DNA from: Cyanobium sp. ATX 6F1
GTDB lineage: Bacteria; Cyanobacteriota; Cyanobacteriia; PCC-6307; Cyanobiaceae
NCBI RefSeq assembly: GCF_024346315.1
Contig: NZ_JAGQCS010000001.1
Location: forward strand, 62,001-126,000
DNA: 64,000 nucleotides
Direction: 5' to 3'
Shown: positions 2,556-6,831 of the stretch, in pieces
Position numbering within the stretch: the first letter of the stretch is position 1
How the letters are laid out: every line of letters begins with the position of its first letter
Translations under genes and position numbers: made by a program
Notes under the pieces: model-generated
What the model saw: only the letters and a program-made list of their open reading frames with translations
Database searches by the model: none
What the model was told of the DNA's origin: nothing

Positions 2556-3086
2556 CTACCAGTCGTCCTGTTCGGGGCTGTCCCAGCTCACATCCGGATC
2601 GGCCGCCGCGGCGGAGCGCCCGTGGGACGGGCCCGTGGCGACGGTGGCCTGGGCCGCCGCGGCGGGCTTGCCCTTGCGGATCACCCGAAACGGCACCGAC
2701 ACGGTGGGGGGAGGGTCCTGGGGGGCGCGGCGCGGCCACTGGCCTCCGGTCGGTATGGCGACCTCGGGGGCGGCGAAGCCTGGGGCCCGCTCCGGTTCTG
2801 CGGCCGGGCGCGGGCGGGTGGGCCCCTCCCAGGGCGCACCGGCGGGCCCCTGGCGCAGCCGGCGACGCAGGGCCGGAGCCCCGGAGCGCAGGGCCAGGGC
2901 CGTGGCCCCGCCGCTGAGCAGGGCACCACCACCGGCCGCCAGGGCCATCCAGATTCCGATCGGCAGGGCCGGTGCGCTCCAGACCAGCAACCGCAGCGGC
3001 AGGACAGGCCGTGGATTGAGCGCGCCCACCAGAAACACCGCCAGCAACGGCGCCAGCAGGGGAATCAGCAGCAGGCGACGGAGCAC
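2556..3086 (-). CDS. Uncharacterised two-helix membrane protein
   Basis: 176 residues, GTG start. Two hydrophobic helices lie at about 4-24 and 38-68, followed by a long Pro/Arg/Ala-rich cytoplasmic-type tail that ends in a short conserved-looking acidic motif (WDSPEQDDW). The topology resembles small cyanobacterial membrane proteins of unknown function. It starts 7 bases after the ubiX stop, so it probably belongs to the zam-ubiX transcription unit. I do not recognise a family with certainty and assign no function. Confidence 0.6.
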   Translation of the reverse strand: MLRRLLLIPLLAPLLAVFLVGALNPRPVLPLRLLVWSAPALPIGIWMALAAGGGALLSGGATALALRSGAPALRRRLRQGPAGAPWEGPTRPRPAAEPERAPGFAAPEVAIPTGGQWPRRAPQDPPPTVSVPFRVIRKGKPAAAAQATVATGPSHGRSAAAADPDVSWDSPEQDDW

Positions 3087-3093
3087 GGGCCGT

Positions 3094-3708
3094 TCAGGTG
3101 GGGGGAAGGGGACCTTGCCAGCGGCGCAGCGAGCCGAGGTCGTAGCCGAGGCAATCGAACACCCGAATCACCAGAAAATCCACCATCTCCTCGATCGTGC
3201 TGGGGCGGTGGTACCAGGCGGGCACGGGCGGGGCGATGCGGGCCCCCGCCTCGGCCAGGGCGGTGAGGTTGCGCAGGTGCACCAGGCTCCAGGGCATCTC
3301 CCGGGGGGAGATCACCAGGGGCCGGCCCTCCTTGAGGTGCACGTCCGCCGCCCGCTCGATCAGATCCAGGGCCACCCCCGAAGCGATCCGCCCCACGGTG
3401 CCCATGCTCGCCGGCAGGATCACCATGCCGCGGGTGCGGAAGCTGCCGCTGGCGATCGCAGCGGCCTGGTCGTTCCAGCGGTGGCAATGGAGTGTGCCGG
3501 AACTGGTGCCCGTGCACTCCCGCCAGAAGGCCTCCTGGGCCGCCGGTTCCGACGGCACCCTGAGCCCCAGCTCCGCCTGCCAGACCCCGATCGCCCCGCG
3601 ACTGGTCACAAGCTCCACCGTCTCGCCCGCCTCCAGCAGCAACTGCAGGGCCCGCTGGGCCAGGGGCTGGGCGGAAGCGCCGGACACGGCCAGCACCACC
3701 GGGTCCAT
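3094..3708 (-). CDS. ubiX: UbiX-like flavin prenyltransferase
   Basis: Makes prenylated FMN, the cofactor of UbiD-type decarboxylases, by attaching dimethylallyl phosphate to FMN. Visible motifs are SGAS near residue 9, a SFRTRGMVILPASMGTVGRIA segment, and REMPWSLVHLRNL followed by PPVPAWYHRP, all standard for the UbiX flavoprotein fold. The ATG at 3708 is preferred over an in-frame TTG at 3714: it sits two bases after the stop of the upstream RNB gene and has GAGG about 8 bases ahead. 204 residues, normal family length. Its UbiD partner is not in this window. Confidence 0.92.
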   Translation of the reverse strand: MDPVVLAVSGASAQPLAQRALQLLLEAGETVELVTSRGAIGVWQAELGLRVPSEPAAQEAFWRECTGTSSGTLHCHRWNDQAAAIASGSFRTRGMVILPASMGTVGRIASGVALDLIERAADVHLKEGRPLVISPREMPWSLVHLRNLTALAEAGARIAPPVPAWYHRPSTIEEMVDFLVIRVFDCLGYDLGSLRRWQGPLPPT

Positions 3709-3710
3709 GC

Positions 3711-6017
3711 TCAATCCTCGCTGGGGGCCATCGTCAGGGGTTCGGGGCCATCGAAACCAGAGGCCCCAGCGGAGCCGGACTCACTTCCGTCGTCGCCATC
3801 GGGCTGAACCACGACCAGGTCGATCTGGTGACGCAGCACGTCCACCTTCTGAATCACCACATCAACGGCATCGCCGAGCATGTAGGTGCGCCGGTTCTTG
3901 CGGCCCACCAGACGGTTCTGGCGGGAGCGGTACTCGTACCAGTCATCTTTCAGGGAGCTCACGTGCACCAGCCCCTCCACCTGCGATGGGGGCACCTCGA
4001 CGAAGAAGCCGTAGCTCTGCACGCCGCTGATCACCCCCGGCAGGGTCTGGCCCACCAAGGGTTCGGCCTGGCGCGCCTGGGCCAGGGCCAGGGCGTCGGC
4101 GTGCAGCTCCTGCACGAAGCGGGAGCGGGTGTTGAGGCGGTGCAGCAGGGCGCTGCTGCGGGCCTCCTGGATCGGCGCCAGGGTGCTGGGGGGCAGCAGC
4201 GGCCAGTCCACCTGTCCGTGGCAGCTGTCGGAGGCCAGCTCCACCTTGGTCTTGTGGCGCACGGAGGGACGGTCCTTGCCCTCAGTGAGCAGCAGCACCA
4301 GCACCTGCTGGTTCCAGATGTCGGCGTAGTGGAGCGCGGGAAGGGTCCAGGGGGCGTAGGCGGTGTCCTCGCCGACCACGTGGTTGGGGCCAGGGGTTTC
4401 GCTCAGCAGCACCGGCCGCAGACTGTCCTTGAGCTGCTGCTGCAACACCCGGGCGCGGTCGCTGCTGGCGAAGGCCGTGGCCAGTTCCGAGGCGGTGGCG
4501 TTGCCGTCGGCCGAAAGCTCCAGGGGGAGTTCCAGGGCCAGGGCGGCCTTGGCGACCTCGTTCAAGTCGGCAGGGTCGGGGGCCTCGTTGGTGGCATAGA
4601 GACCCGGCAGATCCAGGGAAGCCAGGTGGCGGCCCAGGGCCCGGTGGGCCGGGATCAGCAGTTCCCGCAACAGGGCGAAGGGATGGGTCTCGTCCAGGGA
4701 CACCAGCCAGCCTTCGCGGCTCTCATCCGGGGGCGCCGTGGTCAGATCCCCCAGGCTCTCGATCGCCGGGGTCGGTAGGTCCAGATCAATCGAGCCGGCC
4801 TGCCACCGTTGCTGACGCAGCAGACCCGCCAGCTCAATGAGCTGCTCCAGCAGGGGCAACTGATCCTTGAGGGCCTTGAGGGCCGCCGGCACGGTGCGGG
4901 CCTTGGGCTTGCGCTCGGCGAGCGCCTGGAGCGTCCCGGCGTCGACGCGGGCATCGACGCGCACGCTGCTGCGGCTGAAGGTGTAGTGCTGCAAGCTCCC
5001 CTGGCGATCGAGGTCCAGGGCCACCGACAGGGCCGACTGGCTCTCACCGCTGCCCAGGGCGGCCGCCTTGGTGAGGGCGGGGCTGAGCAGGGGCAGCCAG
5101 CGGGGGCCGATGCACAGGGCCTCCGCCTCCTCCCGCAGCCAGAGATCGAAGCTTCCGCCCGGGCTCAGCCTCTCAGCCACCGCCGGGGCGTGGACCCACA
5201 GCCGCCAGCCCTCGCCGGTGTCCTCGAGGGACACGGCCGGCAGCAGGGGGGCCTCAGCGCCGCTCCAGCCCTCCAGCAGCAGGGTGGGGAGGGCGGTGAG
5301 ATCGTCGCGGCCCTTTTCCGGCAAGCTCTTGAGCGTGGCGCGGGGCGCGGCGGGCCGCTCCCGAAGACCGTGCTTGGTGATCAGCAGATCCAGGTCGGCC
5401 TCAGGGCCACCGTTGATGGCCAGGCTGCGGGCCACGTGGCCCTGGGGGGCGAACTGGCCGACCGGGTAGCGGTCGATGCGCACCTCCACCACGGAGTCCT
5501 GCTGAGGGCTCAGGTGGGCGCTGTCGGTCTCGGGCAGCTCGACGGTGGTGAGCAGGCGGTCATCCAGGGGCAGCGCCACCAACCGCTCGTTCTGCTGGGC
5601 CACCTGGGCCAGCAGCGAGGTGGTGCCCCGCTCGAGGATGCACTGCACGCCCCCTTCCGGGGAGCGGCGGCGACCGCCGTCGCGGGTGATGCGCACCAGC
5701 ACCCGATCGCCGTTCCAGGCGTGGTTGAGCTGGTGGTCACGGATGTAGATGTCTTCGCCGCCGTCATCCCGCAGGGCGAAACAGAAGCCCTTGCTGGAAC
5801 AGCGCAGCCGCGCCTCGATCAGGCTCTCGTCCGGCCGGCGGCTGACGGCCTCGCCATCGGCCTCCAGCAGGCCCACACGGCTGAGGCCGTCGAGGGCGAT
5901 GCGCAGCTGCTCTTTGTCGGCCTTGTGGCTCAAACCGAGCGCTTTCTCCAGCTTGGCGACCGGCAACGGATCGCTGGCGGGGAGCTGGTCGAGCAGGTCG
6001 GCGACCGTGAACTTCAT
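3711..6017 (-). CDS. zam: RNB (RNase II/R)-family protein, Zam-like, probably catalytically degenerate
   Basis: 768 residues from ATG 6017 (an in-frame GTG at 6095 would add 26). The N-terminus is a winged-helix-like segment (MKFTVADLLDQLP), then a cold-shock-like part, a long RNB-like middle and a clear C-terminal S1 domain (GVISGVQSYGFFVEV...GLVHVSSL). Cyanobacteria carry this family as Zam, first named for acetazolamide resistance. Where active RNase II/R proteins have the DxxxxxDxDD metal cluster, this one has hydrophobic residues before LEDTGEGWRLWVHAPAV, and the TSPIRRYAD motif is TLPALHYAD, without the arginines. RNA binding is therefore plausible, exonuclease activity doubtful. ubiX follows after two bases. 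Confidence 0.8.
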   Translation of the reverse strand: MKFTVADLLDQLPASDPLPVAKLEKALGLSHKADKEQLRIALDGLSRVGLLEADGEAVSRRPDESLIEARLRCSSKGFCFALRDDGGEDIYIRDHQLNHAWNGDRVLVRITRDGGRRRSPEGGVQCILERGTTSLLAQVAQQNERLVALPLDDRLLTTVELPETDSAHLSPQQDSVVEVRIDRYPVGQFAPQGHVARSLAINGGPEADLDLLITKHGLRERPAAPRATLKSLPEKGRDDLTALPTLLLEGWSGAEAPLLPAVSLEDTGEGWRLWVHAPAVAERLSPGGSFDLWLREEAEALCIGPRWLPLLSPALTKAAALGSGESQSALSVALDLDRQGSLQHYTFSRSSVRVDARVDAGTLQALAERKPKARTVPAALKALKDQLPLLEQLIELAGLLRQQRWQAGSIDLDLPTPAIESLGDLTTAPPDESREGWLVSLDETHPFALLRELLIPAHRALGRHLASLDLPGLYATNEAPDPADLNEVAKAALALELPLELSADGNATASELATAFASSDRARVLQQQLKDSLRPVLLSETPGPNHVVGEDTAYAPWTLPALHYADIWNQQVLVLLLTEGKDRPSVRHKTKVELASDSCHGQVDWPLLPPSTLAPIQEARSSALLHRLNTRSRFVQELHADALALAQARQAEPLVGQTLPGVISGVQSYGFFVEVPPSQVEGLVHVSSLKDDWYEYRSRQNRLVGRKNRRTYMLGDAVDVVIQKVDVLRHQIDLVVVQPDGDDGSESGSAGASGFDGPEPLTMAPSED

Positions 6018-6125
6018 CGGGGGCGGTGGGGCGGCGATGGGCACCTCGGCCGTCTGGGCGTGCAGCGAAGCCCAGGCGGACGTGCGTCTTGACACCTGAC
6101 TCTAAGGATCGGTGGGATCGCAGGC

Positions 6126-6419
6126 CTAGGCCGTGGGCGGCTCGGCCTGGGTGGAGCGCCAGATCAGCCGGCCGCCGATCAACAGAAAGCCCAGGGCCGC
6201 CGCGAGCTGAAGGGTCTCCGGGTCAATCACCGAGGAGAGGGAGCCCCCGGCGGCGGACCCCAGCAGGCTCGCCAGCACCAGGGCGGCGGAGCTGCCGGCG
6301 AACACCGCCCCGGGTCGGTTCGTGGTGCCGCTGATGGTCACCACCGCCAGCTGGGTCTTGTCGCCAAGTTCCGCCAGGAAGACCGTGATGAAGGTGGAGG
6401 CCAGCAGGGGAAGGGTCAT
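6126..6419 (-). CDS. Half-size GDT1/UPF0016 family cation exporter, subunit B
   Basis: 97 residues with three hydrophobic helices and one copy of the family signature ELGDKTQ (E-x-G-D-[KR]-[TS]) at about 17-23. Full-length GDT1/TMEM165/Mnx proteins carry two such motifs in six helices and export Mn2+ or Ca2+; here the two halves are separate genes. It starts 13 bases after the stop of the other half (6433-6831), so the products very likely pair. In cyanobacteria a full-length relative moves Mn2+ across the thylakoid or plasma membrane; the substrate here is inferred only. Confidence 0.85.
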   Translation of the reverse strand: MTLPLLASTFITVFLAELGDKTQLAVVTISGTTNRPGAVFAGSSAALVLASLLGSAAGGSLSSVIDPETLQLAAALGFLLIGGRLIWRSTQAEPPTA

Positions 6420-6432
6420 GGGAGTGGTGATC

Positions 6433-6831
6433 TCAGGGGGCCATCAGGCCGAGGGCGGCCTGGCGGCCGATCCACAGCCCCAGGCCCACCATCAAGATGC
6501 CCGCCAGGCGCTCCAGCTGATGGGCCGGCATCACGCCCGCCAGCCATCGGCCCAGCAACACGCCCACCAACGAGGAGCAGACCAGGGCCAGGGCGGCACC
6601 GATGAACACCACCACGGGCTGCCCCGACTGGGCCGAAAGCAGCAGGGCCGCCAGCTGGGTCTTGTCGCCCAGCTCCGCCAGAAACACGGTGGTGGCGGTG
6701 GTGAGGAACACGGCGCCCCAGCGTCCCGCCCCCAGGTCGGCCGTTGGGGCAGCAGGCGTTGGGCTTGGCTCCACCACGGCAGGTGGGTCGGCAGCGGCCT
6801 CAGTTGTGGCGGACGGGTTCTCATCGACCAT
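6433..6831 (-). CDS. Half-size GDT1/UPF0016 family cation exporter, subunit A
   Basis: 132 residues: an acidic Pro/Ala-rich leader of about 35 residues, then three helices with the family motif ELGDKTQ (VFLAELGDKTQLAALLLSA). The ATG at 6831 overlaps the stop of the upstream cysteine-cluster gene (TGATG), a sign of translational coupling. A longer open frame to 7341 exists but is antisense-free coincidence: it runs through the upstream gene. Together with the adjacent half-size gene it should form a two-subunit equivalent of a full Mn2+/Ca2+ exporter. Confidence 0.87.
   Translation of the reverse strand: MVDENPSATTEAAADPPAVVEPSPTPAAPTADLGAGRWGAVFLTTATTVFLAELGDKTQLAALLLSAQSGQPVVVFIGAALALVCSSLVGVLLGRWLAGVMPAHQLERLAGILMVGLGLWIGRQAALGLMAP

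Follow-up and report, generated by a model that had tools for sequence, protein, structure and literature searches.

The window analysed here, a stretch of 64,000 nucleotides from Cyanobium sp. ATX 6F1, encodes on its minus strand (positions 3711 to 6017) a protein of 768 amino acids plus stop codon, an orthologue of Zam from a cyanobacterium of the Cyanobium/Synechococcus type. The protein has kept the domains and the predicted fold of RNase R, but the residues used for catalysis by RNase II and RNase R are replaced. Judged from its sequence, it very probably does not hydrolyse RNA, and there is good support for interpreting Zam as a pseudonuclease with an RNA-binding or regulatory role. This interpretation was already published in 2022 by Thomas et al., who described degenerate active sites in Zam together with photosynthesis phenotypes (PMC9145284). 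The additions made here are modest and concern the residues of the window Zam, the graded decay of the catalytic site with its repeated losses, a test of selection, exceptions to the cysteine pair and the ubiX neighbourhood. The gene is kept by nearly every cyanobacterium and its deletion alters the pigment and photosystem balance; zam genes should not be annotated as ribonuclease R.

The reading frame of zam is also open from an upstream GTG at 6095. The ATG at 6017 was taken as the best start, because its methionine (M1) is nearly invariant across the Zam alignment and because the two cysteines of the first cold-shock domain then fall on residues 73 and 79, as in the protein of PCC 7002. Pfam matches were obtained for RNB (2.6e-46), OB_RNB (1.9e-18), CSD2 and S1. 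The NCBIfam model of RNase R gave 205 bits against a cut-off of 598 bits, a score to be expected for a divergent, non-enzymatic relative of RNase R. Orthologues in Cyanobium and Synechococcus records showed 67-75% identity to the window Zam, which places the window among these picocyanobacteria. On the minus strand, the protein starts with an RNase R-like winged-helix region (residues 1-62, positions 5832-6017; modelled by AlphaFold2 as helices and then a hairpin, no Pfam match), followed by the first cold-shock domain, CSD1 (residues 63-126, 5640-5831; Pfam OB_RNB), and the second, CSD2 (residues 127-213, 5379-5639; the Pfam match overlaps its start and the extent was taken from the model). 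The RNB domain covers residues 237-578 (4284-5309) and the S1 domain residues 654-734 (3816-4058).

An AlphaFold2 model based on the window protein and 63 orthologues reached a mean pLDDT of 90.3 and a pTM of 0.89, with disorder confined to the last 27 residues (742-768, 3714-3794, minus strand; pLDDT below 50). The best matches among solved structures were RNase R, namely 8cdu (Z 36.6, 4.6 Å, 615 residues) and, for E. coli RNase R, 5xgu (Z 35.0, 3.0 Å over 599 residues), while fungal Ssd1 (7am1), a proven pseudonuclease, scored a Z of 30.6. RNase R of E. coli and Bacillus, the closest solved fold, shares the winged helix, CSD1, CSD2, RNB and S1 with the window protein. A previous sequence-only reading of this DNA had proposed a Zam-like member of the RNB family with intact fold, S1 domain and N-terminal winged helix, and the Pfam domains, the alignment and the predicted structure agree with it on each of these points.

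The active site was examined in two alignments. In the first, made by MAFFT L-INS-i, 90 Zam proteins were set against RNase II and RNase R of E. coli and the Rnb encoded in the same genome; the second was larger and held 188 Zam proteins. The anchor residues of E. coli RNase II were confirmed in the E. coli sequence itself. At the positions of D201, D207, D209, D210 and R500, the window Zam carries E249, E255 or P, L259, P260 and L562, respectively, where the D207 column depends on the alignment (P in the 90-protein set, E255 in the 188-protein set). The position of the catalytic aspartate cluster corresponds to residues 249-260 (EGWSGAEAPLLP, 5238-5273, minus strand), and TSPIRRYAD is replaced by TLPALHYAD at residues 558-566 (4320-4346, minus strand), with L562 standing for the catalytic arginine. 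The RNA-clamp positions Y253, Y313 and F358 are occupied by C, A and D. RNase R, in contrast, has four catalytic aspartates, the catalytic arginine and the clamp tyrosine. D209 has been described as the most critical residue of E. coli RNase II (PMC3293843). The peptides quoted in the sequence-only reading proved to be correct, and its arginine-free TLPALHYAD was confirmed. Its statement that no acidic cluster is present was right in substance but too strict in wording, as E249 and E255 show the D201-x5-D207 spacing, although neither is conserved.

Among 99 Zam proteins of Cyanobiaceae, residue 259 is L in 93, residue 260 is P in 91 and residue 562 is L in 76, which shows that the replacement is old and fixed, a trait of the family and no sequencing error. 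E is found at 249 in 29 of the 99, and D or E at 255 in 60. A sequence search for a substitute acidic cluster elsewhere in the chain found none; an alternative cluster was rejected, since the conserved acids in the RNB region of Cyanobiaceae Zam lie dispersed, and no intact set of aspartates could be located by sequence. Three single acids, E282 (5172-5174), E299 (5121-5123) and D424 (4746-4748), are present in 96-100% of Cyanobiaceae Zam and nearly absent from other Zam. One could suppose that E249, E255 and other acids form a rebuilt metal site by which the window Zam still hydrolyses RNA, as the glutamate spacing and these lineage-specific acids might suggest. Such activity is highly improbable: E249 and E255 are not conserved, D209 and D210 are represented by L and P in more than 90% of the family, and neither R500 nor the tyrosines are retained.

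Apart from zam, the genome (2.96 Mb, 17 contigs) holds a single RNB gene (L001), located on a different contig. Its cluster is intact (IDDPLTREIDD), and its FTIDDPLTREIDDG together with TSPIRRYGD represents the normal signature of RNase II, the D207 position being Glu. The window Zam combines the CSD1-CSD2-RNB-S1 architecture, seen by Pfam and in the model, with a degenerate RNB site and the CSD1 cysteine pair, and its genome encodes a canonical RNB protein besides. Zam of Synechocystis PCC 6803 (sll1910) and of Synechococcus PCC 7002 (A1543) likewise show this domain layout, a degenerate RNB site, C73 and C79 at identical positions and a coexisting canonical Rnb. No difference in kind was seen towards these two proteins; Cyanobiaceae have a fixed APxLPA site that lacks an acid at both D209 and D210.

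Selection was assessed by the Nei-Gojobori method on six close pairs of Cyanobiaceae Zam. The dN/dS values were 0.09-0.19 for the RNB domain, 0-0.06 for CSD1, 0-0.10 for S1 and 0.65-0.88 for the weakly constrained, disordered tail. The dead RNB domain is therefore maintained as a fold and does not drift, and it is still under purifying selection, as is the whole folded part of the protein. Across the 188 Zam proteins, mean conservation was 0.76 for CSD1, 0.76 for S1 and 0.49 for RNB, and in S1 at least 95% conservation was reached in 31 of 83 columns; the same pattern was published earlier for a smaller set of Zam (PMC9145284). The RNB domain and the linker before S1 are the least conserved folded parts, which could be taken to mean that the RNB domain is merely decaying and that Zam is on its way out. 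This explanation is already contradicted and has almost no probability left. It conflicts with the low dN/dS of the RNB domain beside the much higher value of the tail in the same proteins, with the nearly universal retention of the gene and with the deletion phenotypes of PCC 6803 and PCC 7002 (PMC9145284). Of 145 genomes sampled from the class, 140 gave a Zam match (131 of the 135 good ones), as did 134 of the 151 sampled from the family (93 of the 94 good ones). A possible plasmid or phage Zam was also considered and rejected, as the matches listed were ordinary RNase R relatives with 19-27% identity over long stretches.

The decay of the catalytic site is graded across cyanobacteria. None of the 90 Zam proteins has all four acids, with or without R500, while D209, D210 and R500 are kept together in 32, of which 19 also have D201. 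Among named genomes, Microcoleus sp. FACHB-1515, Elainella saxicola and LEGE 07170 carry the D209/D210/R500 form. Nearly all Zam have lost D207, in a column whose alignment is difficult wherever the loop carries insertions. The 14 Cyanobiaceae proteins of this set retain none of these residues. The absence of the catalytic cluster put forward in the sequence-only reading is right for the window protein, whereas the 32 of 90 Zam mentioned above are less degenerate. A provisional tree of Zam was built by a quick LG+G4 run with the motif columns left out. Rooting with E. coli RNase R and the own Rnb was defeated by long branches, and minimum numbers of losses were taken over all rootings. Loss-only counting, which presumes that the residues were ancestral and were never regained, gave at least 7 losses of D209, at least 17 of D201 and at least 10 of R500; the minima were 4, 10 and 6 when branches below 95% support were collapsed. 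Presence in the ancestor is reasonable, since the catalytic residues are common to the active family. For D209 and D210 as a joint pair, as few as two losses could suffice, depending on the root, so that the case for independent loss is strongest for D209, D201 and R500 considered one by one. The graded decay supplies Zam forms with three, fewer or no acids, by which nuclease function could be separated from adaptor function.

The fungal Dis3L2/Ssd1 branch is the closest published parallel to Zam. Ssd1, a pseudonuclease of this branch, likewise combines a dead RNB site with conserved cold-shock domains (PMC8097288, PMC8934651), and in this branch at least four losses of the active site occurred while the cold-shock domains were conserved (PMC8097288). 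The two proteins are of separate origin. Ssd1, whose funnel is blocked by insertions in CSD1 and S1, has proven RNA binding on the outer surface of the cold-shock domains, whereas RNA binding by Zam is putative. Conversely, Alr1240 of Anabaena, identified as Zam in PMC9145284, speaks against a pseudonuclease. It is called RNase II and is reported to be an active exoribonuclease that degrades unstructured RNA; it also binds RNase E and increases the activity of that enzyme (PMC10989914). Alr1240 is likened to Zam here by its name in the literature and by its RNase E partner. Provided that Alr1240 is Zam, some Zam proteins are not dead.

With slightly less than even confidence, we propose that Zam may be a bacterial parallel of Ssd1, in which a non-cutting function would have arisen first in an ancestral cyanobacterial RNase R, followed by stepwise and repeated loss of catalytic residues, D207 apparently everywhere. 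The large group with three of the four acids (D201, D209, D210, together with R500), consisting of filamentous and related cyanobacteria, may then retain weak activity. If true, a three-of-four site would reconcile an active Alr1240 with the dead Zam of PCC 7002.

The cysteines C73 and C79 lie in the L12 loop of CSD1 (RCSSKGFCF, 5781-5801, minus strand), and both are present in the window Zam, numbered just as in PCC 7002. C73 was found in 182 and C79 in 181 of the 188 Zam proteins. In PCC 7002 the pair is redox-active, the mobility of the protein depends on redox state and C-to-S mutants phenocopy the deletion (PMC9145284), which changes phycocyanin synthesis and the photosystem ratio (PMC9145284). 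Both cysteines are missing in one Zam clade (L090:2008-4065, L091:3355-5412, L092:3764-5836, L093:1847-3904 and L086), where RFSRGSFWA stands in place of RCSSKGFCF; four of its members (L090-L093) are also shorter, at about 690 amino acids. A single cysteine is lost in RCC307 (L117), L140 and L021. The Zam of Synechococcus sp. RCC307 (L117:4001-6253) has S73, the natural counterpart of the deletion-mimicking C73S of PCC 7002. Given the clade lacking the RCSSKGFC loop and the S73 of RCC307, the published term "invariant" for these cysteines needs softening. The cysteine-free clade would provide a natural test of the redox model.

Thomas et al. suggested that redox state controls either RNA binding or RNase E (PMC9145284). 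We regard Zam as an RNase R-derived pseudonuclease kept beside a working RNase II, and hold it to be moderately probable that it acts as a redox-gated adaptor. CSD1 and S1, the most conserved parts, would bind RNA or RNase E, or both, without cutting, and the RNB domain would serve as a scaffold. Such an adaptor could tune RNA turnover, with the C73-C79 disulfide setting its activity by redox state, and might in this way couple mRNA decay to photosynthesis. The missing redox pair of the cysteine-free clade and the single cysteine losses weigh against this mechanism, as does the purified protein of PCC 7002, which showed neither nuclease activity nor RNA binding, although its authors urged caution owing to aggregation (PMC9145284). 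Given this result, Zam may just as well bind RNase E. The regulatory protein derived from an exonuclease envisaged in the sequence-only reading thus stands as far as its non-hydrolytic character is concerned, while its RNA-binding part is challenged by the same purified protein. Zam might even work by protein contacts alone, activating RNase E or serving as its scaffold, with no RNA binding of its own. The RNA clamp and channel residues are gone, the purified protein did not bind the RNAs tried (PMC9145284) and Alr1240 binds the catalytic region of RNase E 1:1 and stimulates it (PMC10989914). We nevertheless consider this rather unlikely, as the basic and aromatic CSD1 loop and S1, which are RNA-contact surfaces in RNase II/R, stay the most conserved.

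The gene neighbourhood of zam does not fix its function. A ubiX-like flavoprotein gene (3094-3714, minus strand; Pfam Flavoprotein) overlaps the zam stop by 4 bases, and such a gene lies near zam on the same strand in at least 93 of 107 Cyanobiaceae loci and at least 47 of 89 other cyanobacterial loci, several of the loci being truncated. Directly upstream, two short tandem genes of the GDT1 family of cation/proton antiporters (6126-6786, minus strand) are present in 104 of the 107 Cyanobiaceae loci but absent from all 89 others. In 44 of these 89 there is a gene which, from our own reading of its sequence, is presumably PhoU-like. A rough motif scan for ribosomal protein genes (S18, L33) upstream of zam gave no pattern. 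Three genes downstream of ubiX, a gene with a Pfam Rubrerythrin domain was found, which we take to be AcsF-like. Between ubiX and a DUF2996 gene lies an ORF of 176 amino acids (2556-3086) with no Pfam match, absent from the other cyanobacterial loci and present on the same strand in 77 of the 107 Cyanobiaceae loci.
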